Below the pieces are notes generated by a model, which did not search any database, was not told where the DNA came from, and saw nothing but the letters and a program-made list of their open reading frames with translations. This document shows, piece after piece, positions 121 through 46,833 of a DNA stretch of 52,037 nucleotides (its first letter is position 1; each line of letters begins with the position of its first letter). Location: positions 1 through 52,037 of IMG/VR virus record IMGVR_UViG_3300025151_000050, one strand, 5' to 3'. The translations under genes were made by a program, and so were the position numbers. The DNA is from a virus.

Positions 121-543
121 ATGGTAAATAAGTTATCTGATGAATTAAGAGAAGCAGTAAAGTTATCTGAAGGATATAGAACTAGAGTCTACAAAGATAC
201 TTTAGGTATAGATACTATTGGCTATGGCTTTGCAATTAAAGATTTAGAACTAGATAAAGATATATGTGATATGATATTAGATAAAAAATTAAACAAGTTG
301 ATTAAAGATGTAGATAATAAGTTTTCATTTATGGATGACATTGCTGTAGAAGCACAAGATGTAGTTTATGAAATGTGTTATCAGCTTGGCATAAATGGAT
401 TTTCAAAATTTAAAAAGACTATTGCTTATTTAAGAGATGAGAATTATAAAATGGCAGCAATAGAAATGCTTGATTCTAGGTGGGCAAAACAAACACCTAA
501 TAGAGCAAAGCGTTTAAGTAATATTATTAAGGATTTAGCATGA
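121..543 (+). CDS. T4-type lysozyme (endolysin, glycoside hydrolase family 24)
   Basis: This 140-residue protein is a muramidase that would cleave the MurNAc-GlcNAc bond of peptidoglycan at lysis. The T4 lysozyme triad is visible with correct spacing: E17 (SEGYR), D26 (YKDTLG) and T32 (DTIGYG), separated by 9 and 6 residues as in T4 E11/D20/T26. The C-terminal half keeps the family pattern around QLGINGFSKF and the SRWAKQTPNRAKR block. No signal peptide is seen, so release should need a holin. The start has an SD (AGGAGAATAAG), and the gene overlaps the next small membrane protein by ATGA. Confidence 0.93.
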   Translation: MVNKLSDELREAVKLSEGYRTRVYKDTLGIDTIGYGFAIKDLELDKDICDMILDKKLNKLIKDVDNKFSFMDDIAVEAQDVVYEMCYQLGINGFSKFKKTIAYLRDENYKMAAIEMLDSRWAKQTPNRAKRLSNIIKDLA

Positions 544-699: not shown

Positions 700-1458
700 G
701 TGCTTAAACGGGCAATAGTAACTCCCGATAAGCATTTTCCTTTACATGACCCTGAAGCAATTAGTTGTGTAAATCAAGCGATAGAAATAGTTAAACCTGA
801 TATCTATATAGATTTAGGTGATACAGGAGAATGGTCTTACTTTAGCACACATTACTGGAAAGGTAAGTTTGCGAAACCAATGGAAGATTTAATTCCACTA
901 TTGGACCAAGATGTAGCTGAAGTCAATGCTGGTATGGATTGGATTGATGCCTCTTTGGACAAAATAGGCTGTAAAGAGCGACATTTTATTCAAGGTAACC
1001 ATGAGGTATGGTTAGACAAATTCGTTACTAGATACCCGTATTTAGGCCATTATGAGACATCAAAGGCATTAAAGCTAAAAGAAAGAGGATATAAATATCA
1101 TCCTTATAATAAGAAAAAGAATTTAAAGATAGGTAAAATAAACTTTACACATGGAAAATATGTACCCAAATATCATGCTTATAAACATCTTGACCATTAT
1201 GGTGAGAATATTATGTATGGACACACGCATGACCTGCAAAGGTTTACAAAAACTTTTAATGGAGGTACTATAAGCTCGTGGAGTTTAGGTTGCTTAAAAG
1301 ATATAGAAGCTGATGAAGATTGGTTGGGTGGTAAGTTGACAAATTGGAATCATGCATTTGCAATAATAGATTTCTTTAAAGGTGGTAATTTTAAAGTAGA
1401 AGTAGTAGAAATTATAAAAGGAGTTACTACAGTATGGGGAAATTTAATTAAAGGATGA
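700..1458 (+). CDS. Calcineurin-like metallophosphoesterase
   Basis: This 252-residue protein begins at a GTG. The ordered metal-binding motifs of the calcineurin-like phosphoesterase fold are present: DKH at 10-12, GD at 40-41, GNHE at 99-102, TH at 150-151 and GHTH at 174-177. Such enzymes use two metal ions to hydrolyse phosphomono- or diesters, and the substrate cannot be read from sequence. The usual GDxxD is GDTGEW here. It lies between the lysis genes and tiny late genes. Phage members have been proposed to act in DNA processing or nucleotide metabolism. The next small gene starts inside its stop codon. Confidence 0.85.
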   Translation: MLKRAIVTPDKHFPLHDPEAISCVNQAIEIVKPDIYIDLGDTGEWSYFSTHYWKGKFAKPMEDLIPLLDQDVAEVNAGMDWIDASLDKIGCKERHFIQGNHEVWLDKFVTRYPYLGHYETSKALKLKERGYKYHPYNKKKNLKIGKINFTHGKYVPKYHAYKHLDHYGENIMYGHTHDLQRFTKTFNGGTISSWSLGCLKDIEADEDWLGGKLTNWNHAFAIIDFFKGGNFKVEVVEIIKGVTTVWGNLIKG

Positions 1459-9326: not shown

Positions 9327-9380
9327 TATGAATATTTTAAGACTTTTATTACATTACATTGATAAAAAGGAGTTGATTTT

Positions 9381-10471: not shown

Positions 10472-10473
10472 TT

Positions 10474-11565: not shown

Positions 11566-13166
11566 TGGCAGATTTTATGGATGATTTAGTTAACATAATA
11601 AATGCTGGTGCAAATGCATATGATTCTTATGCAAGCTCTAAATTAGCAAGTGCGAATGCTAGAGCTGCTTCAAGAGAGCGTAGAGAAATGGCTGTTTTTC
11701 AAGATTCATTATTACGTGAACGACAAAATGATAAAATTGTTATTGATGCTTTAGAAGATAGATATAATGAATCAGTTAAAGAAATTAAAAGGTTAGATGC
11801 AGAAGCTACTAACCTTGGATTTGATTATGAGAGTTATTTAGGAACTATACCTGAAAACGAAAGAACTCAAGATATGCTTTCTGTTTTTGAAAATGAAACT
11901 GATTATCAAAATAAAACATTATTTGCAAGCGTAAAAGAAGCTAATGATATTGATACATTAAAGAAAAATCAAAAAGCTAGTACTGCTATGAATGAATGGA
12001 AAATTAGAGAAATAGGCAATCTTATTAACCAATATGAAGCTGGTGAAGCTGATGCTAAAATGATGGATACAGAAATGGGAATTAAAAGTATTCCTGATTA
12101 TTATGATTATCAAAATAAAGTAAAAGAATTTAGTGATAAATATTTAATGTCTGAAGATGATGTCAGAAGATTTCAATCTGAATTTATGGGCATGAAAGAA
12201 GGCGATGAAGGTTATGGTATTTTTGGACCTAAGACAACTAAAGCTTATGATGAACTAAATCGTGGACCTATGATTTCTTTAGATGCAGGTCCTGATGAAA
12301 TATTAGGTAGCCTTGACGATACTAGAAGAGGATTATCTGCTAGAGGTGCAGGATTAATGAGCGGTGCTCCTACTACTAAAGAGCAATTGCAATTAGAAAC
12401 TGCATTAACTAATCTTAAAAATAAAAAATTAACTGATGATGCTAAATCTGGTTCAATTGATTTTACTCAAGCAAGAAGTGAAAATTGGTCTAGTGTAAAT
12501 TCAGATATGAGAAGTTACGCTACTAATGTTGCACAACTTCAAGGCACTGGTAGTTTAAATGAAGACTATAGAGAAAAATTTGCATTTGATGCATCTATTA
12601 AATTTGACAAAGAAGGTGGATTTAATAGTAAAGAAGATTTAAAACAATTTAGAGATAGTTTAGGTCAAAAGCTTTTGCAAGTAGCTAAATGGGGAGATGA
12701 CTCTAGCTTGTCTGATGATTTAAGAAAAGCAGTAATAGCTGGTGATTTGCTTGATTTATCTAATAAATTAATACCAGATAATCCAAATGACATTGACCCA
12801 ATGACTGGAGTTAGTAAAAAATATTCTGGTAATTTATTTGACTTTGCAGGATTTAATGATATGGGTGTAAATGAAAATAGACATTTTGTAGAAAATTTAA
12901 AAATGTGGAAAAAAGCATACGACATAGAAGGTGATATTGATAAATTTGAATTAGGGTTATTAAAAACACAGGCAGAGCAAAACAAAAGATTATCTAATTT
13001 AATATTACCCTCTTATTCTCCTTCAGAATTTGGAAAAGATGATATTGCCCAATTAGATGCATTTTTACCAAAAGACCTTTCAGTCTATGACGATAAAGGC
13101 GGAATAGATTATGAGCAATTATCTAAAGTATTAGATATGATGAAACTTTTTAATTTTGGGAAATAA
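11565..13166 (+). CDS. Probable internal virion protein, helical
   Basis: This 533-residue protein starts in the stop codon of the preceding gene (TAATG). It is largely helical by composition. The N-terminal SSKLASANARAASRERREMA is an Ala/Arg-rich helix, and charged coiled-coil segments follow at 50-150. Similar long helical proteins without recognisable domains sit next to the giant ejected proteins of podoviruses. Its stop codon contains the start of the 3444-residue protein, so the two are translationally coupled. Confidence 0.5.
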   Translation: MADFMDDLVNIINAGANAYDSYASSKLASANARAASRERREMAVFQDSLLRERQNDKIVIDALEDRYNESVKEIKRLDAEATNLGFDYESYLGTIPENERTQDMLSVFENETDYQNKTLFASVKEANDIDTLKKNQKASTAMNEWKIREIGNLINQYEAGEADAKMMDTEMGIKSIPDYYDYQNKVKEFSDKYLMSEDDVRRFQSEFMGMKEGDEGYGIFGPKTTKAYDELNRGPMISLDAGPDEILGSLDDTRRGLSARGAGLMSGAPTTKEQLQLETALTNLKNKKLTDDAKSGSIDFTQARSENWSSVNSDMRSYATNVAQLQGTGSLNEDYREKFAFDASIKFDKEGGFNSKEDLKQFRDSLGQKLLQVAKWGDDSSLSDDLRKAVIAGDLLDLSNKLIPDNPNDIDPMTGVSKKYSGNLFDFAGFNDMGVNENRHFVENLKMWKKAYDIEGDIDKFELGLLKTQAEQNKRLSNLILPSYSPSEFGKDDIAQLDAFLPKDLSVYDDKGGIDYEQLSKVLDMMKLFNFGK

Positions 13167-16100
13167 TGGCAGAAGAAAAATATGGAATAGGCTTTAATCC
13201 TATTGAAGAAGAAGATGAAGCTGTAAGATTATTACGTAGCTTAGATTACATACAAAATCAAACAAAACCTTTAAATGACGATGAAAAGTTAATAAGTGGT
13301 GATAAAGAAAAGTATGTAAAGCTTCCAGAAGAAGAACCTGTTGTAGAGCAAATAGAACCTCAAGAAGAATCAGAAGAAAACCAACAATTATATAACTACG
13401 CAAATCAGTTCATAGAGGCACAAAATATTCCTATTGGTGATAGTGGCAAGCCTATAGTAAATCCTTCCGATATAGGGCTATTTTTAAAGCAAACAAACCC
13501 ATATGATAGAGAAATACAAGACTATGATGCTGATTTATTGGGTGATAAATGGCTTAGAGAAAATCCAAACCAAAAACAATTTGAGATATATGAAACTAGT
13601 CTCTCAGATGAATTAGCTTATACATTTAGAGAATTTGCTGATAATATTAAATTATCTGTACCTGCTTTTTTACAAATGGCAGCACAGCAATCTAATGAAT
13701 ATAGTTATTTAAATACTGTAAAATCATTAGTAGGAGAAGAACCTCAAGATATATTTGACGATGAAACAAATATTAAACTCCCAAGAGATAAAAAAATAGA
13801 TATAATAAACATGCTTCAAGATGCTAAAAAAGCTCAACTTGAAGAAAATAGAAAAGATGTTGAGTATATGGCATGGATGAGATATGCTGCTGACACACCT
13901 ATGTCAGAATGGGGTGAAGGGGTATGGGCAAGAAGTGCTGGTCGTTCAGTTTCTAATTTATTACTTCAATATCTTATTCCAACTGGAGCTGCTATAATAA
14001 CTAGAAATCCAAATGTAGGATTAGTTTCTAGCTTAGGATTAGGTTATTTATTAGAAGGCTCTAATCAAATGTCTAGTTCTATTGATTATTTAATGCAAGG
14101 TAAAGAAATATCTTTAGATGAATATAATAAAAAATTATCTTTATTTAGAAATACATGGTCCGAAGAATATAAAGAGCAGTTTGGGGAAGATATTAGTGAA
14201 AAGAAATTAAAATTAGATAGCGATACATGGACAAATAATAACTTTGATATGAGTCAATTAAGTAAAGGTATTATTAAAGAGTATGGCCATTCTAAAGAAG
14301 AAGCGTATGATATAGCATGGGTTGCTGCTAATACGTATGCAGTAGCTTCAACTAGTATTGAATTTTTCCCTGGAATGAGAATAATGAAAAGAGCTGCTGG
14401 TGTAGATAGAAAAATGATTGGACCTAAAACATATAGAGCTTCTTTATTTTCAACCATATTAAATAAAACATCTGATGCAACTAAGCGTATTGCTCAAAAA
14501 ACTGGACTTGCTACACGATTATCTACTCCAGCAATAGCAGCAAATGTTGGAAAGACAAGTATTTTAGAAGGAGCAACAGAGTGGATGCAGTATAATGCTG
14601 AAGTAGCTATTGAAACTATAGGTCCAGCAGCGTATAAAAGCGAATCTTTTTCAGAAGTATATGATTACAATACTGCATTAGAATCATTTGTAGGTGGAAT
14701 GATGGGTGGCGGTATAATGTCTTTGTCTACTGATATAGTAAATAAATCAGGAGCAATGCAAAGAGTAGCTAACTTTAGCAAGAAAATGTATCCAGGTCGT
14801 AATACTATTGTAGTTAAAAAAGACGATGATGGTAGATATAAACTTGTATTTAATGATAAGTTCCAAGGAGTTACAATTGGAGACCCTGAAGTTAGAAATC
14901 AATTACTACAAAGAAATTTCAAAAAAGAGTTATTAAGAGACGAACAAAATAATGAAATATCTTATTCTAACTTTAGAGAGGCATCAGAAGTTGCTAGTCA
15001 ATTAACTGATGAAATGAATAAGTTTGACAATCAAATCTTCTTACATAAAATGCAGTCTTATATAGGAGGTGAAGTAAAGATAGAGCAAACCTCTGAAGGC
15101 AAGTTTCAAGTAAATGCTTATAATAAAGAAGGTAAATTTATAAACACTATTGAAACTGCTGATACTAAAGTTGCTGCTAAAAAGACATTAAAGATAGCGT
15201 CACAAAATATAGTATCTATAAATAAATTAAATGAGCAGATTAGTGAAAAAGAAATGTCTGAAAATAGATTCTTGCAACAACTTAAGCAAGAAGAAAGCAC
15301 TACAGGCGTTAATGTAGATGTTAAAACATCTGAAGTTAAGAATAGAGGATTAATTAATAATAGAGATTTAAATACTGATATAAATATATTAAAAGCATTT
15401 AATCCTGATAGTGAAGTTAAAACAGAAGAAGAAAATGATGTTATCGATAAAGTTAACGATGATTATAACCTGCATGAAGATTCTAATATTATTAAAGAAA
15501 TTATAGAAGAGCGTGGTGGTAATGTTATATTGCATAGTGGACAAACTCCTGTTGAGTTTTTAAAAGAATATGAAGATACTTTTGGAGAAGATAGCCCTGA
15601 AAATGTAGAAGCTATACGAAATATTTTAATAGAAGATGAGTTGTTACCTCCTAGTGAAATGCCACAAGACAATGAATCTACTCCTGCAGAAAAAGTAGAA
15701 AAAGAAATTGAATTAGGCCCAGAAGGTGATGCTGTTTTAGATAGAACAGATATACCTATAACAACAGTAGATAGAGATGATAATACTGGACGTAATATAA
15801 ATATAGATAAAGGTGAAAAATTACCTATACAAAAAACTCCAAAGCCTAAGGCTAGTAAAAAACAAAAAGAATTATCTAGCTTAACAGATGAGCAATTAAA
15901 GTCTAGATTAGCTACATTAATATCAACTGAAAAAAAAGCTGGACTTCCATTAGCTAGTCAGAAAAAAGAATTATTAGACGAACTTAAAGCTAGAGGTATA
16001 GATGAAAAAGATTTAGATTTAAAACAAAAAATATCTCCACGTATTCTTGAAAAATTAGAAGCTAATAGGGAAAAATATATTGAAATTGTATTGCCAAAAG

Positions 16101-19100
16101 ACATAGATGGAGATGTAGAAGAGCGAATAAATTACAAAGAATTTGCTAAAGAACTATCTAGACTTATTAAAATAGATACTCCATCTAGTGATTTGCTTAC
16201 TAGAGACTTTATTGACAATTCTATAAAACCATTTTTTGATAAACGAATAGTTAATAGTAAAGGTGAAAAGTTATTTAACGTTAAAGAAGTAAACGACCCT
16301 CAAGTATTTAATAAGGGATGGTATGTACCTTCAGAAAAAACGCTATACATAAATACTGCCTATGCTACAAAAGATACTCCTTTTCATGAATTTGCACATC
16401 CTATATTAGAATACATGGATAAGCAAGACCCTAAAACTTTCGATAAATTATATGAAGAAATTTTAAATACTCCTGAAGGCAAAAAAGCACATAGCGTTGT
16501 AAAAGAACTATATCCTGTAGATTATCAAAATCAAACTGCTTTATTTAAACATGAAGTATTTGCTGAAGCTTTAGGTTATATGGGTAAAAAGAAGTACTTA
16601 AGTCCTGCTGATAAAACTTTATGGCAAAAAATAGTTGATTTTATTAAACAAGTATTTGGAATAAAGCCTGAGTCTTGGAGGTCTATGAAAGCTGATAAGG
16701 TTCTTACTGGCCCTAATGTTAGTATAGAAAAACTTGTAGAAGTTATATCTGACCCTACTAAAAAATATACATTAGAAGTTTTTACTGACGAAGAAAAATT
16801 AGCATCTATGCAAGATATACTGCTAACAATGCCAAATCCATCTCCTACAATGAATCCTACTATACCTCAAAGAATTTTAACTCCTGTATTTAGTGAGATA
16901 AAAGATGCTGAATCTAGTCAAAGAGAGTTTCTAGATGTTGTAGTGGGTGAAGCTTTAAATGAAGCATTAAGTAATTTACCTGATAATCTTACCGATAACG
17001 ATATATTTAATCTTAATAAGTCTATTTCTTTAGCTTTAGGTAAAAAATTAAAAACTATGCTTAAAATACCAAAGCGTTTATATAAAGGTAAAAAGTATAA
17101 AGTAGGAGATATTGATTCTCAAGTTGTAGATATATTAGACAATTCATATAAAGAATTATTCAGTCAGACATTAGTTAAGTCTGGATTGCAAAGTAAACTT
17201 TCTGGAGATGACATTAGTCCAAAATGGACAAATCCTTTGTTTACATATTCAGACGATAGAAAAACAATAACTTTAACTGCCGAAGGGTCAGCATTGCATG
17301 ATGTATTTAAAGCAGTGCAATTTAAGAATAGGGTATCAGAATTTTTAAGAAAGAAACAAATAAAGTTTTCTGTAAATGACATTAATGCAAAGTTTAGTAA
17401 ACAATCTGAATTTGGCAAAGAGAGTAAAGAAATACAAGAATTTCAAAAGTATTTAGATAAAAAAGATATTTTAAATGTTGATGGCAAAAGAATAAAATCT
17501 ATTGATTCATTTGAATTAGCAGAACATTTTGACACCTATATGGCAGAAAAGTATCCATTATTTTACGAATCGTTTCCCAAAAATTATGGAGTAGAAATAC
17601 ATAAAATATATAGAGATTATGAATTATCAGAGCAGATGAAAGAAAATAGTATAGCTAATAGAGTTGCATTTTTTGATAAAGCAACCACTCTACATAACTA
17701 CTTTTCATATCATGGAATGGGTAAAGGATATAAAGAAGGTCCAGCCTCTATTGATAATACTGCTCCTTTATTTTGGTATAGTTATGAGAAAACTCATGAT
17801 GGAGATATTGTATTATATGAATATCAAAGTGATATATTTGACAAAGATGTATCTACAGGATTAAGTTCAAATGATTTAATAAAAGATTTAAAAACCAAAG
17901 GAAGCGATTCTACAACTAGTGGATTTATATTAGAAAAAGCACTTGATGTATATTATGGAAAAAGCTCAGATGCTGTAGCTGATATGTTAAAATATGGATA
18001 TAGAATACCTCCTGTAATAAAAAGGATGATTAATTTTGAGTTTAAATTTAAAGATTTAATTAAATATGTCGATGAAACTGATGAGAATAAATCATTACTT
18101 ATAAAAAAGATAGTTGATAATAATTTAATGCCTATGTTTCATTTAGATGACTTAAGGAATAGTAATAAGAAAGAATTATTTAAACTATTAGGTAATCATG
18201 CATTTGATGTATTTAAAACTACTGGAGATTTTAATAAAGCTTTAAATAGCTATAAAGACATTTTATCATTCCAAGTTCCTGACGTTACTTCGTTTGATGA
18301 AAATAGGCAATTAAATAATTGGGAAAATATATTGCATGAGTTTAAAGTGTGGTCTTCATCTATGTCTGGATACAATGCTTATGGAGTTAATAAAATAGAT
18401 AATGAAATGTCAGTAGCTTTAATGCAAGATATTATTAATAATAAAGCTAACAAGGAAAGATATTATGAAATTTTAACTGCTATAAATAATGGAGAGCAAG
18501 TTGAAGGTGGTAATGAAGCAGCATTAATTGCTTTAAACGAAAACAAATATAGAGAAATATCTTCTCGATATCAAAGAATAAAAACAGAAGGACTTAATAA
18601 AGAAAAATCATCTAATGCATTAACTGAATTTATAAAAAGTTCAATTATAAATAATCCTTCTTTTATGGAAGCAACATTAATTAGATACAAGCGTAGTTCT
18701 GAAATCCCTAATTTAATGTATAAAGCATTAGCCATGTCAAAAAGATTTACAAAACAAGCTGAAGCTGAGTTTCAAAAAGGTTTAAGATTTGCTAATAATG
18801 CTAAATTTTTAACAAATGAAGTATTTTCAAGCAAAGAAGCATTACGTGCTTTTGCAGAAGCTGAATTTCAAGAATCTATTGTTAAATTTTTAAACATATA
18901 TATATCAAATAGAAGTTCTTCTGAAATAAAAAGCAAGGCTCTTGAATTAGCTAATGAAAAAAATCAAGTAAATGCAGAAAAAATAGCTAAAGAATTTAAG
19001 GTAATTAAAGATAGACACGATAAAATGATTAATCCTGTTGTGCAGTCAAGATATTTTGATTGGATTATTCGTCATTCAATTATAAATGCATCTCAATTAA

Positions 19101-22100
19101 TAGAAGAAGGAAAATCTATTTATTTAAATACAGGTGCAAGTATTCACAAACAAGAGCATTGGGATGAGCAAAATGACCCATTTCATATCTATAAGTCTCC
19201 AAATGAAAATAAATGGCATATTACTAAACAAATTTTAATGGACGATAGAGATGCCCTATTAAGACAGAAATTGTCTAAAATGTTTGCTAAAGATGGTTTA
19301 GAAGATAAATATAAAATGAATTTAGGTATGTTTTTAGATACCTTTACTACTTCTGGTCCTGGTTTATTAGGATATAAATATGAATATGGTGAAATTAATC
19401 CTTACGATAATAAAGATTATAGAGAGGTTCAAGATTGGCTATCTAATAATATAAAAAATGCAGTTTCTGTATATAAGCCAACTGAAAAAACTACCGTTGC
19501 TGGTTTTGATTATAAATATGAAGCAACTAAAAAGAGATTAGAAAATTGGAATAAAGTAGGACCATGGTATACAGCATTAACAAAAATTAAAAATTTAGGA
19601 CTTGAATATGTTACTCCAGAATGGTCATCAGTTCCTTTGCTTAAAGTAACTAAAATACCTTCTGACTTAACTCCTACATTTTATCAAAAAACTGTATTAG
19701 AGATAAGTGATGCAGAAGGAAATCCACAATCTTTATCAGATATTAAAGAACTAGCTAATCATTTATTGGAAAAAAGAAATCTTACAGCTAGAAAGAAAGA
19801 CAGAATATTTAAGAATGCATGGAAACAATTAAATGAAATCAAAGAAGGAATTGTTGCAGACCCACAAGAATTTAGAGTCGCAATGATAGATGGACTGCCT
19901 ATTGATATAAGAGATGATTTTGTTAAATGGTTTAAAGTTAATTTTAACAAAGATAAAATGCAGAAGATTAGAAGTAAAGAAGCGTTTGGGGAATCTCAAG
20001 AATATTTTCTAGATATAGAAGATGTTGCAAGTAATGTTATGACATATTTAAATGAAATGTCTGAAGGCTTAGATGACTTATCTAATAAAAAACAAACTAA
20101 TGAAAAAGAAATAGGTATTAATGAACTTACCTATTTTAGAGAGTTAGGTATAAATATAAGTCAAAATGAATTAAAATCAGTTAGAAAAGAAGCACATAAA
20201 ATAGATAGATTTGAAGACTGGTTAAAAGAAGTAGGTCCTAAATACTTTGCATTAGCTCCTTCTAAAATGGTTAATTGGAAGAAAAATGGATTGCAAAAAT
20301 ATTATTTAAGGATTAGAAGTAGTATTAGAGTAAATACATCTGAAGGTGTAAATAATGAACGAGACAATTTTAATGTAGAAATAGTTGATGAATGGATAGA
20401 CGGACAGTGGGTAGTTAAAGATTTTAAGATAGGATTAAAAGGCCCTGAAGACAAAAGCTCAGGCAAAAAGAATGCTACTTTTGAAAAAATAATGCCATTT
20501 GAATTTGTAGAAAAAGGTTTGTTTGGTTTTATATCTCCTAAAGACATGAGAGTTTCTAGAGCAAAAAAAGATGAAGACGGAGAATATGTTTTAGACAATA
20601 CAGGTAAAGCAGAAAGAGAACTTAAGGAAAGATATGGAAGTTTAACAGAACGTGAACTTTTACTGTTATCTAAAAGATTAGGAGAAAAAGACCTTGCCAT
20701 AGCATTTATGAGAGGTGAAGCAGGAAAGCTCGGTATTGTAAGGATTACTTCTGACCATAAAAATAAAGCTAAAAATGCTGATGATTACTTTGATTTAAAA
20801 GGAGTAAGCCCTGAAATGAAAGAAGAGCTTATGGGCAAAGGCTTAAAGTTTAAAGATAATAACGCTAGAATGCAATACATAGCTGCAGAGATTGCTGTCG
20901 TTGAAGCTATGGAAAAAGTATTCCCTGATTATTTAAATAGAAGTATAGCTAATGTATACAAAAGAATAAAGCTACCTTTTACACCAGCTACATTTTCTCA
21001 TGAAATGGAAGATATAAAATTAAGACGTATTAGTCCTGAAGAATTAAAAGATTTAAGATTTGTATATAACAATAAAACTAATACAGATGGTTTAAAGAAT
21101 GTTAAAGGAGTTGGCGTTAAATATATAGCAGACGGTGGTACTATTAATGGTAGAAATATATTTGAAAAGTTTTATAAAGGGTTTGGTTTAAAGAGAGGTA
21201 CAGCTAAAGGTAAGACTGTTATATATCATAATGATGGCTCAGGAAATGTTATTGCAGTAAAACATCAGCATTCTATGATGGAAAAACTTATGGATATCTA
21301 TGTAGGTGATAAGAGAATTGCTTATACAGATAAAAATGGTAATTTATTTTTAGACAATGGAAGTCCTATAGATATGCTAGCTACTGAAGATGAAATTAAA
21401 ATTTTAACGGGAGCTGGTAATTTATCTAATGAGATAATAGAAATACCAGGGAATGCAATAGGGTTTATAAAGTTTGATGAGCATACATCTACAAATGGTA
21501 AAACTGCTATTCAAGCATGGAATCATATTTATGATAGAAATTTAGTAAGTGCATTTAATCAGTTCATGGTGCCTCAAGCTGAAAAAGAAATTAGAAAAAT
21601 GATTTTACTTGCTGTAGATACTGTTAATTCTAAGTCTATAGATAAACAATTAGAATTATTAAAGATATTAGAAAATCAAGATTCTGAAGGATATATGCCA
21701 TCTGCATTAGAAATGGCTAAATTAGGAGCAGGTAATCATCCTTCTATGGCTCCTGTTTATAATAAACTTGTACAAAGACATATCATTGAACCTGGGGTGC
21801 AGTTATCTAAAGTTCCAGGCTCACGATTAGATTTTGCTCCTAACTTTAGAGGAGATTTAGATAGAGGTGAAGTAGCATTATCGATTCAGAATGCTAAAGC
21901 TATTAAAGAAAAATATGCTGAAATGAATGACATGAGTCTTTCTGATGTAGATAAATTATCAATGAAAGTTTTAAATGAATGGTTAGCAGATAATCCTATA
22001 TATATATTTGCATCTAGAAGTCCTATACCACACGTTGGTGGTGCGATGATGGCTAGAGTTAAAAGACTGCATGGAAGAAAGGGTCTTATTGAAATTAATA

Positions 22101-23500
22101 CCGATGATGTATTTGCTAGATTTGAAGGTGATTTTGATGGAGATGAGCTACACATAGAAGTTTTACCTCAAGGTATGGGACAGCCTATGTTAGAATTTTA
22201 TGACAACATAGCTAAAAATTTAAAAGGTATTAGCTTAGATAAGTTTGTTAATCCTAATAATAATGCTAATTTTAGTATAGGCAATAGACGAGATAGATTT
22301 AAAATTATGGAAGCGTTAGGTCATGGAAATAATGCCATGGGAGAAATATCTAATGTTCAAGGCGTTTACGGTCAAATGGTTCAAATGATAGAGTCAATAG
22401 AGTTGCCATATTCAGGTAAAAAAATTATGCTAAAGCAGCCTACTGATATAATAAAATGGAAGCCTTCTTATTATAAAGATGGAAAATGGTCTGGGAATAT
22501 TAGTGACTTTTTAAGAATAATGTTACAAGCAGCTTTTGATAATAATGAATTTATGCTACTAGGCGAATGGAATTATAATCAGGATGGTCTGTATAGATTT
22601 TTATTTAAAGATGAAAAAGGCAATCCAATTACTGAATTAGATTTTGATTTATTAAGACCATTATTAAAATTAATAAAATCTGCTCAAGACATAAGAAATG
22701 CTAAGACTTATGTTGATGGCCAATTTGATTTGCTTACTACTATGAGAAAAAGTTCAGAGCTAAATAATTTTATTGAACGACTTAATACTGGTATTGTAGG
22801 TGATTTAAAAATTAAAAAATATGATGATGCAGTTATGAGCCCTGTACAAAGCCTTGCAATACTGCCATATCGTTTATATCAGGAATATCTATCTAAATAC
22901 GAAAGAATAGGTGAAAATGGTACTCCATTCCACTTAAACCCTTATCTTCATTATAACGCCCATTTAGACGCTATGGAGCGTATTGATAAAGAAGAGTATG
23001 ATATGTTAGCACAGGCATTAACAGTAGATGGAGTAAATATAGAAGGAAGTGGTGCTTATATAAGACAGCAAGTATCTGAAGGCAATAAATACGCTATGAA
23101 AATGGGTAAGGAATTTTATCGCATATTAGGTGGAGTATCTAAAGCTGGTCCTCAAACTACAGATAGAAATGAAGATTTTATAGCATTTAAAGAACAATAT
23201 AATAAAGAATTTAAAGAATTGTCTAATACAGCACAAGTAGCTGCTACTATTAAGTTCTTAAAAGGAGTAACTATATGGAGAGAAAACATTGCAAAGAAAA
23301 AAACAAAGGCTCCTCATTATTTACCATCTGCTAGTAGGTCTAAAGCAGAATTTCAATTGCTTGATGCAAACGTATTAAGTAGATTCTTTAGATATTATAA
23401 TGAAATAACTAATGCTCCTGAGAATAGAGATTTAAGAGCATCTAAAAGAAAATTAAAATACACTCCTACAATGGATTTATTAAAAAGGTTTGGTTGTTAA
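13166..23500 (+). CDS. Giant virion protein with DPBB-type RNA polymerase core and zincin motif
   Basis: This protein has 3444 residues and starts in the preceding stop (TAATG). Near the C-terminus lies ARFEGDFDGDELHIEVLP, with DFDGD at 2989-2993: the metal-binding signature of two-barrel RNA polymerases (NADFDGD in beta-prime). About 38 residues before it, SRSPIPHVGG (R2951) occupies the place of the beta-prime RAPTLHR block. YIADGG (2653-2658) and lysines 2769 and 2779 (IKFDEHTSTNGK) may belong to the first barrel, with less certainty. HEFAH at 1074-1078 plus downstream HEVFAEAL is a zincin pattern. The N-terminal 550 residues are helical with glycine-rich hydrophobic stretches near 260-300 and 505-520. 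Its size and its position among internal protein genes suggest an injected virion polymerase. The alternative is an inactive structural relic. Confidence 0.82.
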   Translation: MAEEKYGIGFNPIEEEDEAVRLLRSLDYIQNQTKPLNDDEKLISGDKEKYVKLPEEEPVVEQIEPQEESEENQQLYNYANQFIEAQNIPIGDSGKPIVNPSDIGLFLKQTNPYDREIQDYDADLLGDKWLRENPNQKQFEIYETSLSDELAYTFREFADNIKLSVPAFLQMAAQQSNEYSYLNTVKSLVGEEPQDIFDDETNIKLPRDKKIDIINMLQDAKKAQLEENRKDVEYMAWMRYAADTPMSEWGEGVWARSAGRSVSNLLLQYLIPTGAAIITRNPNVGLVSSLGLGYLLEGSNQMSSSIDYLMQGKEISLDEYNKKLSLFRNTWSEEYKEQFGEDISEKKLKLDSDTWTNNNFDMSQLSKGIIKEYGHSKEEAYDIAWVAANTYAVASTSIEFFPGMRIMKRAAGVDRKMIGPKTYRASLFSTILNKTSDATKRIAQKTGLATRLSTPAIAANVGKTSILEGATEWMQYNAEVAIETIGPAAYKSESFSEVYDYNTALESFVGGMMGGGIMSLSTDIVNKSGAMQRVANFSKKMYPGRNTIVVKKDDDGRYKLVFNDKFQGVTIGDPEVRNQLLQRNFKKELLRDEQNNEISYSNFREASEVASQLTDEMNKFDNQIFLHKMQSYIGGEVKIEQTSEGKFQVNAYNKEGKFINTIETADTKVAAKKTLKIASQNIVSINKLNEQISEKEMSENRFLQQLKQEESTTGVNVDVKTSEVKNRGLINNRDLNTDINILKAFNPDSEVKTEEENDVIDKVNDDYNLHEDSNIIKEIIEERGGNVILHSGQTPVEFLKEYEDTFGEDSPENVEAIRNILIEDELLPPSEMPQDNESTPAEKVEKEIELGPEGDAVLDRTDIPITTVDRDDNTGRNINIDKGEKLPIQKTPKPKASKKQKELSSLTDEQLKSRLATLISTEKKAGLPLASQKKELLDELKARGIDEKDLDLKQKISPRILEKLEANREKYIEIVLPKDIDGDVEERINYKEFAKELSRLIKIDTPSSDLLTRDFIDNSIKPFFDKRIVNSKGEKLFNVKEVNDPQVFNKGWYVPSEKTLYINTAYATKDTPFHEFAHPILEYMDKQDPKTFDKLYEEILNTPEGKKAHSVVKELYPVDYQNQTALFKHEVFAEALGYMGKKKYLSPADKTLWQKIVDFIKQVFGIKPESWRSMKADKVLTGPNVSIEKLVEVISDPTKKYTLEVFTDEEKLASMQDILLTMPNPSPTMNPTIPQRILTPVFSEIKDAESSQREFLDVVVGEALNEALSNLPDNLTDNDIFNLNKSISLALGKKLKTMLKIPKRLYKGKKYKVGDIDSQVVDILDNSYKELFSQTLVKSGLQSKLSGDDISPKWTNPLFTYSDDRKTITLTAEGSALHDVFKAVQFKNRVSEFLRKKQIKFSVNDINAKFSKQSEFGKESKEIQEFQKYLDKKDILNVDGKRIKSIDSFELAEHFDTYMAEKYPLFYESFPKNYGVEIHKIYRDYELSEQMKENSIANRVAFFDKATTLHNYFSYHGMGKGYKEGPASIDNTAPLFWYSYEKTHDGDIVLYEYQSDIFDKDVSTGLSSNDLIKDLKTKGSDSTTSGFILEKALDVYYGKSSDAVADMLKYGYRIPPVIKRMINFEFKFKDLIKYVDETDENKSLLIKKIVDNNLMPMFHLDDLRNSNKKELFKLLGNHAFDVFKTTGDFNKALNSYKDILSFQVPDVTSFDENRQLNNWENILHEFKVWSSSMSGYNAYGVNKIDNEMSVALMQDIINNKANKERYYEILTAINNGEQVEGGNEAALIALNENKYREISSRYQRIKTEGLNKEKSSNALTEFIKSSIINNPSFMEATLIRYKRSSEIPNLMYKALAMSKRFTKQAEAEFQKGLRFANNAKFLTNEVFSSKEALRAFAEAEFQESIVKFLNIYISNRSSSEIKSKALELANEKNQVNAEKIAKEFKVIKDRHDKMINPVVQSRYFDWIIRHSIINASQLIEEGKSIYLNTGASIHKQEHWDEQNDPFHIYKSPNENKWHITKQILMDDRDALLRQKLSKMFAKDGLEDKYKMNLGMFLDTFTTSGPGLLGYKYEYGEINPYDNKDYREVQDWLSNNIKNAVSVYKPTEKTTVAGFDYKYEATKKRLENWNKVGPWYTALTKIKNLGLEYVTPEWSSVPLLKVTKIPSDLTPTFYQKTVLEISDAEGNPQSLSDIKELANHLLEKRNLTARKKDRIFKNAWKQLNEIKEGIVADPQEFRVAMIDGLPIDIRDDFVKWFKVNFNKDKMQKIRSKEAFGESQEYFLDIEDVASNVMTYLNEMSEGLDDLSNKKQTNEKEIGINELTYFRELGINISQNELKSVRKEAHKIDRFEDWLKEVGPKYFALAPSKMVNWKKNGLQKYYLRIRSSIRVNTSEGVNNERDNFNVEIVDEWIDGQWVVKDFKIGLKGPEDKSSGKKNATFEKIMPFEFVEKGLFGFISPKDMRVSRAKKDEDGEYVLDNTGKAERELKERYGSLTERELLLLSKRLGEKDLAIAFMRGEAGKLGIVRITSDHKNKAKNADDYFDLKGVSPEMKEELMGKGLKFKDNNARMQYIAAEIAVVEAMEKVFPDYLNRSIANVYKRIKLPFTPATFSHEMEDIKLRRISPEELKDLRFVYNNKTNTDGLKNVKGVGVKYIADGGTINGRNIFEKFYKGFGLKRGTAKGKTVIYHNDGSGNVIAVKHQHSMMEKLMDIYVGDKRIAYTDKNGNLFLDNGSPIDMLATEDEIKILTGAGNLSNEIIEIPGNAIGFIKFDEHTSTNGKTAIQAWNHIYDRNLVSAFNQFMVPQAEKEIRKMILLAVDTVNSKSIDKQLELLKILENQDSEGYMPSALEMAKLGAGNHPSMAPVYNKLVQRHIIEPGVQLSKVPGSRLDFAPNFRGDLDRGEVALSIQNAKAIKEKYAEMNDMSLSDVDKLSMKVLNEWLADNPIYIFASRSPIPHVGGAMMARVKRLHGRKGLIEINTDDVFARFEGDFDGDELHIEVLPQGMGQPMLEFYDNIAKNLKGISLDKFVNPNNNANFSIGNRRDRFKIMEALGHGNNAMGEISNVQGVYGQMVQMIESIELPYSGKKIMLKQPTDIIKWKPSYYKDGKWSGNISDFLRIMLQAAFDNNEFMLLGEWNYNQDGLYRFLFKDEKGNPITELDFDLLRPLLKLIKSAQDIRNAKTYVDGQFDLLTTMRKSSELNNFIERLNTGIVGDLKIKKYDDAVMSPVQSLAILPYRLYQEYLSKYERIGENGTPFHLNPYLHYNAHLDAMERIDKEEYDMLAQALTVDGVNIEGSGAYIRQQVSEGNKYAMKMGKEFYRILGGVSKAGPQTTDRNEDFIAFKEQYNKEFKELSNTAQVAATIKFLKGVTIWRENIAKKKTKAPHYLPSASRSKAEFQLLDANVLSRFFRYYNEITNAPENRDLRASKRKLKYTPTMDLLKRFGC

Positions 23501-26500
23501 TGGCTAATAAATGCGATACAGGTAAAGCAGGATTTGATAATTTAAATAACGATAATGAAGCTCGGAACAAAATATCAGCTGCTGATGCTGATAAAAAAGT
23601 TAAAGCTACAGGGCGTTTATTAGAACGTGAAAATATTGTATCAGAATTAGAAAAAAACAACAAACCTAATTCTATTATTAAAGAGAAAGATTTAGACAAC
23701 GCTATTAAAGCTGTATTTGGTAAAGATGAAAGAAAAGTTTTATTACACAAAATTGACTCTTTATTTCATACAAATGAAATGATGCGACCTGTACTTGAAG
23801 ATATAATAAGAGAACATGTTGTTGTACATCAAAAAACAGGTGGTATAAAAGATTTTAATAAGTTAGGTCTTGAAGCATTAACGCCTAGTAGTTTAAAAGT
23901 TGTTTATAGAGAAATGAATAATTTTTTAGCTGCTACTAATGTAGGTGATAAAAAAGGAAATTATGCTGTAGGATTAATTAAGCATTTTAAAGTAAAACTA
24001 TATACTCCAAAAACTTCAGGTAAGACTGTATATGCAGATAAAGATGGTTCATTTTTTAAATTTGCTGATGAAATAACAAGACTGCATGAGAGAATATCGT
24101 ATCGTATTAATGAGTTTATGTTTAAACCAAAGACATGGAAATCTAAAAGACAATATGGTATGAATGACATATTAACTAGCTTAAGAAATTTAGCAGATGA
24201 TATTCCTTTAAATCAGCGTAAAGAGATTGAAAGACCTGATGAAAAAATAGTTACTATATGGTCGTGGATGATGGGTGGTAGAGTTTTTATAGGACCTAAA
24301 ACAATTAAAGTAGATGATAAAGATGTACCTAATCCTAATGTAGGTAAATTAATGATTTATCAAGAAAGAGCTTCTACTGGTAAGAAATATAAAGAGACTG
24401 ATGACCTTATATTTGCATGGCAAGACCCTGTTCTTTTATCTGAATATAAAAACGGAGAGTTTGCAATACCTTTTAGCTCTACAATGTTTAATAATTTATT
24501 AAAATTAGTTGAAAAAGGTAGAGTTGTAGACAATGAAATGCTTGATTATATGAATGAAAGGCATCCTAAGTCTGTAAAAGCAATAGAAGTAGCAATGAAA
24601 AAACTATTTAAAGGATTAACTGGAGTTGAAATTACTAATATATTGTGGAAACCTGAAAGCAAGGAAGCTCTTGCTGCTTTAAATAAGCTTTCTGACAATC
24701 AAAAAGTTTTATATAAAAAACTATTAGATGCATTTCAAGGGTATGCTTTATTAGAACCTTCTATTTACAATGGTCAGGTAGCTCAAAAAAAAGAAAATCA
24801 CTTTCCTGTGCAATATCAAAAAGAAATTATGCCTTATTTAATAGATAATTATATTTCTAGAAGAGAAAGTGAACTTTTTGACAAAAAAGGTGAGCTTGAA
24901 ATATCTACAGGCAAGGAACGAAAAGTTATTAAAAAAGAAATATCTGATTTAAAATCTAATATATCTAGAGCTCAATTTATACGTGATAGAATAGATGGTT
25001 ATCCGTTAGATACTAGCCAAAACATTATACTTCCTATAGCTAAGGATAATAAATTTGTTAAAAGAATTACAAATGCATTCCCTCATGAAGCTATGAGAAC
25101 AGATGGTGGTGTTTATTATACATATTCAAAACATATTATGTCTGGTATACAACGTAACTTTTTAACAGCACAGCTTATAGAATCTCTAGCAACTGCAGGT
25201 AATGAAAAAATACAAGATGCATTAATTAATTACTACAAAGTTCCATTTAATAAGCCTGATGTTAAAACTAATATTTTAGGTACATATACTTCTGTAGAAA
25301 ATATATCTAGACGATTAGGTAGTATTAACATAAATATTACTCCTGAAATGTTAAGCAGAAGAATAGGAACACTTAATTCGTGGGTTACAGCTAATTATTT
25401 ATCAGGACTGGGAACAACTGTACAAAATTTTACAGCTATAAATCAAAACATTATTGACCATAGCTGGGGGTCATTAAGAGATGCACAAGACTCATGGTCT
25501 AAATACAAAAAAGAATGGACTGAACTTATAAATGAATCAGGTATAGTAGAGTTCCAAGACTTTTTTAGTAAATCGATGATTAATGACCTTGCTAATCAAG
25601 AGTTAGAGGATAAAACTTCTGAAACTTTATTGGCATCTATGTTACAATATCACGCTGAAAAGAAAAAAATAGGTGAACCTAAAGCTAGAGAAAACTTTGA
25701 AAGCAACATAGCTAGAGCTTTAAAAGAATCAGCTTTATTTGACCAAAATATTGTTATTCTAGATGAATCAGAAATTAAACAACGTTCTAAAGAAAGAAAG
25801 TCTGAACGTAATAGAAGAATAATAAACAAAATGGTTCAATTTGCTATTAATAAAGAATTTGAATTTAATAGGCATATAAAAGGATGGAAAGTAGTTCCTT
25901 ATACTGCATTAGGAGCTTACCTTAAAACATGGACTGCAATTGCATCTAATATGGGTGTTTTAGGAAGCATGGGCTCTACTGAAGGTTATATAAGAAGTAT
26001 GAGTTTTATTATAGGAGTGCAAACAGCACAAAAGAATGGATATATTAGAGATGATATTCAGCCATGGAAAAATAAGGATGAATTAGGAGCTATTATTGAA
26101 ATAGGTAGAACATTTTCTAGGTTTACTAATTTTGGATTATCAACTACTGATGTAGGAGAAGGTTCTTATGGTAGAATAGGCAATTTAAATATGAAGTTTA
26201 AATACTGGTCTCAACAAAAGTTTGGTAGGGATGTGCGTATTATAAAAAACGCAATTACTTCAATGCAAGATATAGATAAGATAAGTAAAGGTAAAAGTGC
26301 TAATCCATTTTTTAATCCAAAAGAAGTTTTAAAGATATTGAAGCTTATGTTATCACCTAAATATATGGGGAAAGGTTCTGATGCATTAAGAAAAGTTAAT
26401 CCTGAAGTTGCAGCATTAAGAAACTTTTTATTTATACAAGGTATTATGACAATATTATTTGATTTTTTTATATTTGGACCATTATTATTACCTGGATATC

Positions 26501-26835
26501 TAGGAAGACAATTAGCTATAGGTCCTACTAAATATTTAAGAGGAATGGGAAGTGATTTATTATCATTAAGTATGATAGTACCAATGCTTGCATTAATGGC
26601 GTATATGGGAGATGATGAGGAAGAAGATGTAGAAAGAACTCTTACTCAATATTTAAGAAGAACTTATATTGGATATTTGCCTATGATGGCTTGGGATTAC
26701 ATAGTATTTTTATTTTACTTACTAAATGATAATACCAGTGGAGTAGCTAAACAAGCTGGCAACATTACAAGAGCATTGCCAGGTGGTAAATATGCGGGGC
26801 CTGTAGTTAGAGAAGCAATAGAAGCAGCTGAATAG
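23500..26835 (+). CDS. Large internal virion protein with hydrophobic C-terminal region
   Basis: The ATG at 23500 overlaps the giant gene's stop (TAATG) and gives 1111 residues; TTG at 23494 is a less likely start. Most of the chain is charged and helical. The last 130 residues contain clustered hydrophobic segments (GIMTILFDFFIFGPLLLPGY, LLSLSMIVPMLALMAYMG, MMAWDYIVFLFYLL) that could cross or enter a membrane. It ends the rightward operon. I infer an ejected pore- or channel-forming partner of the giant polymerase, comparable in role to T7 gp15/gp16. No enzyme motif was recognised. Confidence 0.55.
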   Translation: MANKCDTGKAGFDNLNNDNEARNKISAADADKKVKATGRLLERENIVSELEKNNKPNSIIKEKDLDNAIKAVFGKDERKVLLHKIDSLFHTNEMMRPVLEDIIREHVVVHQKTGGIKDFNKLGLEALTPSSLKVVYREMNNFLAATNVGDKKGNYAVGLIKHFKVKLYTPKTSGKTVYADKDGSFFKFADEITRLHERISYRINEFMFKPKTWKSKRQYGMNDILTSLRNLADDIPLNQRKEIERPDEKIVTIWSWMMGGRVFIGPKTIKVDDKDVPNPNVGKLMIYQERASTGKKYKETDDLIFAWQDPVLLSEYKNGEFAIPFSSTMFNNLLKLVEKGRVVDNEMLDYMNERHPKSVKAIEVAMKKLFKGLTGVEITNILWKPESKEALAALNKLSDNQKVLYKKLLDAFQGYALLEPSIYNGQVAQKKENHFPVQYQKEIMPYLIDNYISRRESELFDKKGELEISTGKERKVIKKEISDLKSNISRAQFIRDRIDGYPLDTSQNIILPIAKDNKFVKRITNAFPHEAMRTDGGVYYTYSKHIMSGIQRNFLTAQLIESLATAGNEKIQDALINYYKVPFNKPDVKTNILGTYTSVENISRRLGSININITPEMLSRRIGTLNSWVTANYLSGLGTTVQNFTAINQNIIDHSWGSLRDAQDSWSKYKKEWTELINESGIVEFQDFFSKSMINDLANQELEDKTSETLLASMLQYHAEKKKIGEPKARENFESNIARALKESALFDQNIVILDESEIKQRSKERKSERNRRIINKMVQFAINKEFEFNRHIKGWKVVPYTALGAYLKTWTAIASNMGVLGSMGSTEGYIRSMSFIIGVQTAQKNGYIRDDIQPWKNKDELGAIIEIGRTFSRFTNFGLSTTDVGEGSYGRIGNLNMKFKYWSQQKFGRDVRIIKNAITSMQDIDKISKGKSANPFFNPKEVLKILKLMLSPKYMGKGSDALRKVNPEVAALRNFLFIQGIMTILFDFFIFGPLLLPGYLGRQLAIGPTKYLRGMGSDLLSLSMIVPMLALMAYMGDDEEEDVERTLTQYLRRTYIGYLPMMAWDYIVFLFYLLNDNTSGVAKQAGNITRALPGGKYAGPVVREAIEAAE

Positions 26836-38538: not shown

Positions 38539-38627
38539 ATATTCTCCTTTGTAATTAATTCAATTCAAACTTAACCTTTTTCGATATGAAAAAAGCTATA
38601 TCAAGGGGTATACCTTATGAATATGGT

Positions 38628-38676: not shown

Positions 38677-38682
38677 AGTAGG

Positions 38683-39048: not shown

Positions 39049-39061
39049 GTATATTTAACCT

Positions 39062-40172: not shown

Positions 40173-41726
40173 ATGGCTAATGTTAATTTTAATAATGTAT
40201 CAAAAGCAGAAGAAGCATTAAAACTTGCTAGTAAAGATAATATTGCATTTGGTAAATTATTTTTACAAGATGACTTTCTTAGGAGTGAAACTCCACCTTT
40301 CCATTATGAAATAGCCGATGTAATTTCAAACGAAGAACATAAGCAAGTAGCTATAATACTTCCTAGGGGTCATGGTAAGACAGTAATGACTAAGTGTGAT
40401 ATACTTAAATCATTTTGCTTTACTAAAGACCCTTTGTTTTATGGATGGGTATCAGCTACTGCTAAATTAGCTACTGGTAATATGGATTATATTAAATACC
40501 ATATTGAATTTAACGAACGGATTAATTATTACTTTGGTAACTTAAAGGGTAATAAATGGACTGAAACTGATGTGGAGCTTACAAATGGATGCAAACTTAT
40601 TTCAAAATCAAATATCTCAGGGATTCGTGGAGGTGCTAAACTCCATAAAAGATACGACCTTATCATTCTGGACGACTTTGAAGACGAAAACAATACGATT
40701 ACACCAGAAGCTAGAGCCAAAAACTCCAACCTTATCACTGCTGTGGTCTTTCCTGCACTTGAACCTCATACTGGTAGGTTACGTATTAATGGTACTCCTG
40801 TGCATTTTGATTCTTTTATTAACAATCTTATTGTTAATCACGAGCAGTCTAAGAAAGAAAACAAAGACTTTTCGTGGAAAGTAGTTCTTAAAAAAGCAAT
40901 AGAAGATGATGGTACTATGCTATGGGATTCATGGTTTGGTGCTAAAGAAATGGAGCGTAAAAAGAAGTTTTACGCTGATAGTGGGCAACCCCAAAAGTTT
41001 TTCCAAGAATATATGATGGAAGTGCAGAGTGAAGATGATGCTATGTTTACTCGCGACCATATTAAATATTATAAAGGTAACTTTATGCATGATGCTGATT
41101 CAGGAATAGGATATCTTATACCTGATGATGGAGATGCACAGCCTGTAAATGTATATGTAGGAGTTGACCCAGCGACTGACAGTGCAAGAAGAGAAGCTGA
41201 TTATAGCGTATTACTTGCAGTTGCAGTTGATTTAAACAACAATGTATATATATTAGAATATTTAAGAAAAAGAGGTATACCTGTACTTGGTATTCCAGGA
41301 GAGGATAAAAAAGGAATAGTAGATTATATTTTTGACTTTGCGTCTAAATATTCTCCACAGCTATTTACTATAGAAGATACTGCAATGAGTAAGCCAGTAT
41401 TCCAAGCATTAAGAGCCGAGATGCGTAGACGCAATAATTTTGATGTACGTTTTAAGGAAGAATTACCAGGAACTAGATTATCTAAAAGAGATAGAATACA
41501 AGGTATTCTTGCACAACGATTTGCAATAGGTCAAATACATTTAAAGAAAGATATGTATGATTTACAAAGAGAGATAATAACATTTGGTCCACGTATGAGC
41601 CATGATGATACTATTGATGCACTTGCATATGCATGTAAGTATGCACAGCCACCTATTGGAATAAAAGAAAATAAAGATAGTTATTATAAACATAGACCAA
41701 AAGCTAAAAGCTGGGTAACTGCGTAA
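40173..41726 (+). CDS. terL: Terminase large subunit
   Basis: This 517-residue protein is the packaging motor ATPase and nuclease. Walker A is LPRGHGKT (63-70) and Walker B LIILDDFED (163-171). The nuclease domain has VGVDPATDS (D332), TIEDTAMSK (E401/D402) and SHDDTIDALA (D478, D479, D482). This is the standard order of TerL proteins, with length near the norm. The nuclease cuts concatemers during DNA packaging through the portal, encoded 367 bases downstream. The type (headful, cos or direct terminal repeat) cannot be decided from this alone. Confidence 0.95.
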   Translation: MANVNFNNVSKAEEALKLASKDNIAFGKLFLQDDFLRSETPPFHYEIADVISNEEHKQVAIILPRGHGKTVMTKCDILKSFCFTKDPLFYGWVSATAKLATGNMDYIKYHIEFNERINYYFGNLKGNKWTETDVELTNGCKLISKSNISGIRGGAKLHKRYDLIILDDFEDENNTITPEARAKNSNLITAVVFPALEPHTGRLRINGTPVHFDSFINNLIVNHEQSKKENKDFSWKVVLKKAIEDDGTMLWDSWFGAKEMERKKKFYADSGQPQKFFQEYMMEVQSEDDAMFTRDHIKYYKGNFMHDADSGIGYLIPDDGDAQPVNVYVGVDPATDSARREADYSVLLAVAVDLNNNVYILEYLRKRGIPVLGIPGEDKKGIVDYIFDFASKYSPQLFTIEDTAMSKPVFQALRAEMRRRNNFDVRFKEELPGTRLSKRDRIQGILAQRFAIGQIHLKKDMYDLQREIITFGPRMSHDDTIDALAYACKYAQPPIGIKENKDSYYKHRPKAKSWVTA

Positions 41727-45360: not shown

Positions 45361-46833
45361 ATGGCAGATTTATTCAATTTATCGAATTTGGATGTCTCTC
45401 CTGTTTCTGGTAACGGACCTGGTGCTGGTGCTAGTTTATCGACTGGAGATATGCGTAGACGGTTTAACTTTGGTGACAGAGTTTCTGAACTATCTATCGC
45501 TCAAGACCCATTTTTTCGATTCGTAAGTAAAGTGGCTAAAAAGCCAACAGATGACCCTCAATTCAAATTTACTGAAAAGAGGCACTCATATCATAAAAGG
45601 TATGCATACCTAAAAGCAATGGGAAGTAATTTTGCAACTGCTTTAACAGGAACTGTAGGTAGTGCTAATGGTTTTGCATCTGGTGAAACTTTTTATGGTA
45701 AATTTGGAGCTGATTACTCTAACCAAGGTAATTTAGTAAATAGGTTTGGTCAAACTCCTGAATATGAAGAAGGCGATACAAATACAAAGCCAGGATTCTT
45801 TATGGAAGGTCAATTAATTAAAGTTCCTGTAGCTTCTGCTGATAATACAGGTGGAGCTTCATCTGTAATTGACTACCAAATTGTTAAAGTTACTAGTGTT
45901 GTTGATAATGGTAATTATGTTAATATTACTGGTACAGTAATTAAAGGTGTTGCTACAGGTAGATACTATATGGGTGTGCCTGTATCAATAGTTAACAATG
46001 CTGGTACAACAACTCAAAGCGAAGAAGCTTTAGCTCCTTTCAAATGTTATGTTGTAGGTACTGCTCATGCTGAAGGCTCTGGTTATCCAGAAACTTGGCA
46101 AGACCAGCCTTACTCAACAAACTATGGAAGAACTCAAATATTTAAAACTTCTCTAGCTATGACTAACACAGCGATGGCTACTCAACTAAAGCATGAATCT
46201 AGTGAGTGGGCAAGAATGTGGAAAGAAAAGCTAATAGAGCATAAGTTTGATATTGAAACTTCTTTATTGTTTGGAACTCAAAGTGATACATATTACACAA
46301 CTCAAGGTGCAGTTGACTATATTAATAGTTATGGTAATTCATTTACACTAGACACTAACACTAAGACTTCAGATGATTTCTTAGATGATATGTCAGCGTA
46401 CATGGACCCAAGATACAACTCACAAAGTGCTAATGTGTATTTTGCTAGTACAGCTGTATATAACTGGCTACATAAAATGGGTGGATACTTCAAGAATAAT
46501 CTTGAAATTTCATCTAACTTTAAGTCAGATATTGCTATGACTGGTAAAAAGAAAGTATTTGGTGTAGATATCACTTCTTTCTCAACTCCATATGGTGACC
46601 TTAATGTGGCTAGAAATATCCACCTTGATGGAACTAATGTAAAGATGCTTGGAATTGATATGAAGCACTGTGCGTATCGTCCACTAGTGGGCAACGGTAT
46701 CAACAGAGACACTTCAGTTTACGTAGGTGTGCAAACACTCGAAAACTCTGGTGTTGACCGTAGAGTTGACTTAGTCTTAACAGAAGCGGGAATGGAATGG
46801 TCAATGCCTGAAGCTCACGCTATCTGGTTATAA
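45361..46833 (+). CDS. Major capsid protein (probable)
   Basis: This 490-residue protein follows the scaffold. The flexible N-terminal arm (about residues 1-40) is followed by a P-domain-like sequence (FTEKRHSYHKRYAYLKA), a long spine-helix-like region (KHESSEWARMWKEKLIEHKF) and FDIETSLLFGTQ. The phrase NTAMATQLKHESSE then IE-x-x-L-L-F-G matches the pattern of HK97-fold capsids in the SU10/DUF5309-type group. Position, size and pattern make it the best candidate. No head protease was found, so maturation may not need cleavage. Confidence 0.8.
   Translation: MADLFNLSNLDVSPVSGNGPGAGASLSTGDMRRRFNFGDRVSELSIAQDPFFRFVSKVAKKPTDDPQFKFTEKRHSYHKRYAYLKAMGSNFATALTGTVGSANGFASGETFYGKFGADYSNQGNLVNRFGQTPEYEEGDTNTKPGFFMEGQLIKVPVASADNTGGASSVIDYQIVKVTSVVDNGNYVNITGTVIKGVATGRYYMGVPVSIVNNAGTTTQSEEALAPFKCYVVGTAHAEGSGYPETWQDQPYSTNYGRTQIFKTSLAMTNTAMATQLKHESSEWARMWKEKLIEHKFDIETSLLFGTQSDTYYTTQGAVDYINSYGNSFTLDTNTKTSDDFLDDMSAYMDPRYNSQSANVYFASTAVYNWLHKMGGYFKNNLEISSNFKSDIAMTGKKKVFGVDITSFSTPYGDLNVARNIHLDGTNVKMLGIDMKHCAYRPLVGNGINRDTSVYVGVQTLENSGVDRRVDLVLTEAGMEWSMPEAHAIWL

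Follow-up and report, generated by a model that had tools for sequence, protein, structure and literature searches.

The window analyzed here, by which we mean the whole stretch of 52,037 bases of an IMG/VR virus record (G+C 32%), encodes a giant protein of 3,444 aa. An earlier note had proposed an RNA polymerase core of the two-barrel family, marked by a DFDGD motif at residues 2989–2993 and by SRSPIPH upstream, at R2951, and both positions in the ORF are confirmed. The whole giant has no match in Pfam, PHROGs or the PDB sequences (phmmer), and a profile search of the PDB sequences returned chance matches only. No sequence match names it an internal virion protein, a label that the earlier note had deduced, and none of it exceeds the hydropathy threshold by which membrane helices were called. 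The gene and the parts of its C-terminal region are as follows.

13166..23500, plus strand: giant gene, 3,444 aa, candidate virion RNA polymerase polyprotein (an ORF whose relatives occupy the same late-module slot of related contigs)
20363..23497, plus strand: two-barrel RNA polymerase domain as modelled, residues 2400–3444 (AlphaFold model, Foldseek matches)
21113..21295, plus strand: candidate first barrel (DPBB-B) with Y2653, D2656 G2657, K2683, Y2687 and K2699 H2700, all invariant in 16 relatives
22016..22033, plus strand: RSPIPH, residues 2951–2956, candidate counterpart of beta-prime RAPTLHR (R2951 and P2953 invariant)
22130..22144, plus strand: DFDGD, residues 2989–2993, candidate Mg-binding catalytic loop in the second barrel (DPBB-A), with the three Asp and the Gly invariant, modelled as a loop that joins a helix to a strand
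22325..22387, plus strand: helix 3054–3074, candidate bridge helix, tentatively placed, a long helix after DPBB-A in the model (G3054, N3063 and Y3068 invariant)
22499..22555, plus strand: LRIMLQAAFDNNEF segment, candidate trigger-loop helix, tentatively placed (R3117, Q3121, A3122, D3125 and N3126 invariant)

The DFDGD motif is expected 0 times in shuffles, and no other DxDxD protein was found among the main genes of the window. By itself DxDGD is weak evidence, because the giant holds a second match, DIDGD at residue 979, with no RxP upstream. R2951 lies 38 residues from DFDGD; in E. coli beta-prime the corresponding R-to-D spacing is 35.

Single-sequence scans of viral contigs with the giant returned nothing, and relatives were instead reached by collecting the terminase relatives among viral contigs (387) and then using the C-terminal domain as query against the longer records. 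This search, in which no motif filter was used, gave five homologues at 34–37% identity, and since all five have both RxP and DxDGD, the motif stands above chance. A profile scan added 11 contigs, partly motif-selected, to make a 16-row alignment with a mean column identity of 34%, in which relatives at 28–36% identity retain RxP...DxDGD together with an upstream DG...K...KH block. Around the motif R2951, P2953, G2958, H2969, D2981, E2987, D2989, D2991, G2992, D2993 and E2998 are invariant; as most relatives were fetched with motif-containing patterns, this conservation is partly by construction, from which the five unfiltered homologues are exempt. Degenerate-pattern scans put the clade at 17 contigs with the form of the window and ~30 with a second form described below. 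Annotated phage records held no relative of either polymerase form (a 27% match at E 0.8 was discarded), and gp35 of Roseobacter phage CRP-810 was rejected as a relative, HExxH being present and DxDxD absent.

An AlphaFold model of residues 2400–3444, built on the 16-row alignment, reached a pLDDT of 83.6 and a pTM of 0.79. Its top Foldseek match in the PDB is the virion RNA polymerase of the crAss-like phage phi14:2 (6vr4, E 8.4e-12), followed by QDE-1 (~1e-8), Arabidopsis RDR2 (5e-7), P23-45 gp64 and P74-26 gp62 (3e-6) and cellular beta-prime (1e-4), so that the proposed relation to crAss gp66 and QDE-1 is supported. Two-barrel polymerases account for all 28 PDB matches at E<=0.001, and the single-chain ones align over most of the model; global TM-scores are modest (0.38–0.47), with a large rmsd over the multi-domain alignments. 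The absence of a double-psi barrel from the model, which the earlier note had named as evidence against its proposal, did not occur, as judged by these Foldseek matches. No T7-type polymerase is among the 50 Foldseek matches listed, in agreement with the claim that the fold is not the T7-like one used by N4, and an N4-type virion polymerase was rejected on these matches. In the viral library, the best matches are two unnamed proteins (BFVD A0A516LSI3 and A0A516LUR1; 35% and 31% identity, TM 0.86–0.87), which means that the same family is already in UniProt, with no function given in the tables; further unnamed proteins, a crAss-like phage 'putative RNA polymerase' and P23-45 come later. At the level of profiles, the polymerase of the window has no significant match to the crAss polymerase profile (E 0.13), and the LRIMLQAAFDNNEF segment aligns locally with crAss polymerases, the order being kept, but weakly and below significance. 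The polymerase core appears real because the conserved motif block is joined by the two-barrel matches of a confident model, and residues 2400–3444 are thus very likely a two-barrel (double-psi beta-barrel) RNA polymerase, with the Asp triad D2989/D2991/D2993 presumably in the predicted active site.

The same slot was then compared among sister contigs, which share the terminase, portal and capsid families of the window and whose giant has no BLAST or HMM match to that of the window. These sister giants, of about 2,900–3,020 aa, carry R-N-P-H-T ... EGDFDID. The sister model (pLDDT 78.2) again has 6vr4 as its first Foldseek match (4.7e-10), and the sister group reaches the crAss profile at the motif with E 4.8e-4 and a probability of 32%. 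A shallow first profile comparison of the two forms gave E 0.003; with 20 sister rows they align at 97% probability and E 9e-11 over 600 columns that span both candidate barrels. The DPBB-B candidate is profile-aligned to a DAS...K...K block of the sister giants, with a K-K spacing of 16 in both, and all 20 sister sequences share the Asp triad, RxP and two Lys. The front 1,300 residues of the window form have no match in the sister form. More distant sisters (G026, G027) retain DxDxD, and RxP is not clear in them. In one further sister (G025, L130) the giant is apparently split into two overlapping genes (3367–7866 and 7809–11165), the second with DSDYD at the motif position. From the sister giants with the same slot and the same predicted fold, we conclude that a two-barrel polymerase in the giant slot is predicted to be a rule of the lineage, beyond one contig.

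What this lineage is was approached through its head and packaging genes. The plus strand carries late genes, in the order small and large terminase, portal, an ~300-aa gene, capsid and tail genes, followed by lysozyme and metallophosphoesterase genes and several large genes of unknown product, then the giant and a 1,113-aa gene, and the minus strand carries replication genes (DnaB/primase, Sak4). No terminal repeat was found in the 52,037 bases.

121..543, plus strand: lysozyme/endolysin-like gene (phrog_7, E 6e-17)
700..1458, plus strand: metallophosphoesterase gene of the late module (phrog_221, E 2e-23; phi14:2 gp086 is in the same PHROG)
23494..26835, plus strand: large 1,113-aa gene that follows the giant, its product a candidate for co-packaging or ejection (also after the giant in G007, G015 and G016, at 27–30% identity)
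40173..41726, plus strand: terminase large subunit (phrog_38, E 1e-75)
42094..44358, plus strand: portal (phrog_156, E 1e-61; the N4 portal matches phrog_156 at 7e-21)
45361..46833, plus strand: major capsid protein (phrog_1328, E 5e-15; weak tblastn to Roseobacter phage CRP-810 and PaMx41-like phages)

The terminase is of the N4 type, phrog_38 being common to N4 and hhalign to N4 TerL giving 97.6%. The portal does not match the N4 portal directly, though both belong to phrog_156, and the capsid has no match to the N4 capsid; membership in the Schitoviridae would draw its support mainly from TerL. Terminase, portal and capsid do not match phi14:2 gp102, gp104 and gp105 and fall into different PHROGs, and membership in the Crassvirales was rejected since these three proteins are not crAss-type. 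The layout had been called non-crAss-like, which is right for the head genes and the terminase but not for the late gene order, which resembles that of phi14:2 (portal, ~300-aa gene, capsid ... lysozyme, metallophosphoesterase, large proteins, polymerase giant, large protein). In the sisters, a gene of ~900–1,000 aa with no BLAST match comes after the giant. Because of the family matches of terminase, portal and capsid, the phage probably has a short-tailed, podovirus-like morphology, and because its terminase and capsid have marine named relatives, it is probably marine. The polymerase would then be a distant member of the phage/QDE-1 two-barrel clade, as far as the model tells, in a podovirus-like lineage with an N4-type terminase.

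One contig (G016, L124–L126) shares 90–100% identity with the window in the metallophosphoesterase, lysozyme, capsid, DnaB and some small genes, and its giant is only ~28% and the gene after it 27% identical. On sequence comparison, this contrast indicates strong mosaicism, as if the polymerase cassette had been exchanged. The early and late transcription units diverge from an interval of ~520 bases (window 38539–39061) that is devoid of long genes and is a candidate promoter region; it has no Rfam match. In the early region, sigma-70-like sites occur at chance level, no vRNAP promoter was found, and the repeats are mainly Shine-Dalgarno context. TAAGGAG-type Shine-Dalgarno sites recur before early genes on the minus strand (window 33229, 34675 and 36972) and argue weakly against a Bacteroidetes host; genome contigs held no relative of the polymerase, so the host is not assignable from them.

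Ahead of the polymerase, the giant displays a second motif.

16385..16402, plus strand: HEFAHP, residues 1074–1079, candidate zincin metallopeptidase site (HExxHP present in 13 copies, that of the window among them)

H, E, H, P and Glu 1130 are invariant in a 12-row alignment, and HExxHP is absent in two relatives (L097, L099). The invariant Glu at residue 1130, 56 after the first His, is a candidate third zinc ligand. Some relatives' giants hold extra domains (FtsK gamma, SLOG, acetyltransferase). In one of them (L087), an FtsK gamma DNA-binding domain (PF09397, E 3e-20) at residues 1359–1419 adjoins the zincin, and in another (L101) a circularly permuted YpsA SLOG domain (PF12694, E 6e-11) is inserted behind the polymerase core at residues 4175–4257. 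Polyvalent proteins that are injected typically have such extra domains. Among phages, the crAss-like ones, the phiKZ-like jumbo phages and P23-45 are known to inject two-barrel polymerases.

Three characterized virion polymerases bear on the function of the giant. The phi14:2 gp66 protein is a virion component that is translocated with the DNA and transcribes early genes (PMC7886860), and virions of crAss001 contain three polymerase-associated proteins (PMC10172136). As the top solved-structure match of both window and sister giants, gp66 is likewise a single chain with RxP and DxDxD, encoded in a run of large structural genes behind lysozyme-like and metallophosphoesterase genes; it differs in having DFDID instead of DxDGD, 2,180 aa instead of 3,444 and no HExxH, in the crAss-type head genes of its phage, and in the lack of a significant profile match between gp66-type polymerases and the giant. 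In the Thermus phage P23-45, gp96 is a giant virion protein that contains a DFDGD two-barrel polymerase and a metallopeptidase, is found in virions and has been proposed to transcribe pre-early genes (PMC10770324). Its catalytic block, RNPVMGHGGALLQARV...DFDGD, is very similar, and it is the best local hhalign match of the giant (E 0.012 in one comparison); however, its phage is long-tailed and its polymerase lies near the N terminus of a tape measure of 5,002 aa, whereas that of the giant is C-terminal, in a phage with an N4-type terminase and a related portal family. N4 gp50 is almost equal in length, as had been pointed out earlier, comes with an N4-type terminase and joins a zincin to the polymerase, N4 vRNAP being always zincin-fused (PMC5512222); yet its polymerase is T7-type and sits mid-protein with the zincin behind, and the giant has a two-barrel polymerase at the C terminus with the zincin motif in front. 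Outside phages, the eukaryotic RNAi polymerases QDE-1 and RDR2, the second-best PDB matches, share the single-chain two-barrel fold, but at ~10% identity and as cellular enzymes, not virion proteins.

We consider it quite likely that the giant is a single-chain two-barrel DNA-dependent RNA polymerase that is packed into the virion, ejected, and transcribes early genes. Its packaging and injection are plausible in view of the late-module position, the size, the zincin motif and the precedents. The DG...K...KH block would belong to the first barrel, RxP and the Mg-binding DFDGD loop would belong to the second, and a bridge helix and a trigger loop would come next; we infer the names of these elements and catalysis, and what was observed is the conservation, the model and the fold matches. 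The giant would be produced late together with the tail genes, packed into the virion and, either before the DNA or along with it, ejected via the short tail, as precedented by phi14:2 gp66, P23-45 gp96 and N4 gp50, and would then transcribe early genes. The HExxHP zincin may free the polymerase by cutting, or act on the host.

A two-barrel polymerase could also stay out of the virion and act after its synthesis in the cell on middle or late genes, as single-chain phage polymerases of the P23-45 gp64/YonO kind do exist (PMC10770324; PMC5467207). We hold this to be unlikely, since gp64 is a separate early protein of ~600 aa and YonO a protein of ~100 kDa, whereas the polymerase considered here is fused to >2,000 other residues within a late structural module; moreover, no second polymerase was detected in the window, where the search for a T7-type one (PF00940) is uninformative, as the control was also without match. 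It is also conceivable that the fold has lost transcription activity and is retained in an ejection protein for a structural task or for host takeover; in line with this, the protein is giant and evolves fast, and its relatives have inserted domains. However, 16 sequences at ~30% identity keep the three Asp, RxP and both Lys without exception, as do the 20 sister sequences, which makes such a loss very improbable. Least probable of all, to the point of being scarcely credible, is a two-barrel DNA polymerase or primase-like enzyme: PolD has the two DPBB domains too (PMC10770324), but no PolD is among the 50 Foldseek matches listed, and the best ones are RNA polymerases whose alignments span most of the model.

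The giant, if packaged, had been presented as an independent solution to injected transcription, which overstates the case: independence is unsupported because the fold is that of phi14:2 gp66 and P23-45 gp96 is already published in a non-crAss phage (PMC10770324). Instead, with the nearest catalytic block being that of gp96 and the nearest fold that of gp66, the giant represents a new, very divergent variant, and its family forms a new and strongly divergent clade of two-barrel RNA polymerases, probably virion-borne, in uncultured podovirus-like phages. A wider proposal, for and against which we find the balance about even, is that a whole lineage with an N4-type terminase uses a two-barrel (crAss/QDE-1-type) instead of N4's T7-type polymerase in a zincin-bearing injected giant, and that the giant of this slot comes in two or more forms whose front halves are unrelated, through a non-homologous engine swap and then extreme diversification. 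The giant would extend a rare known strategy to phages whose head genes are not of the crAss lineage. Its ~1,000-aa domain is small enough for expression and assay, and the combination of a gp96-like catalytic block with a fold nearest to gp66 may be useful for the question of kinship between single-chain two-barrel and RNAi polymerases.
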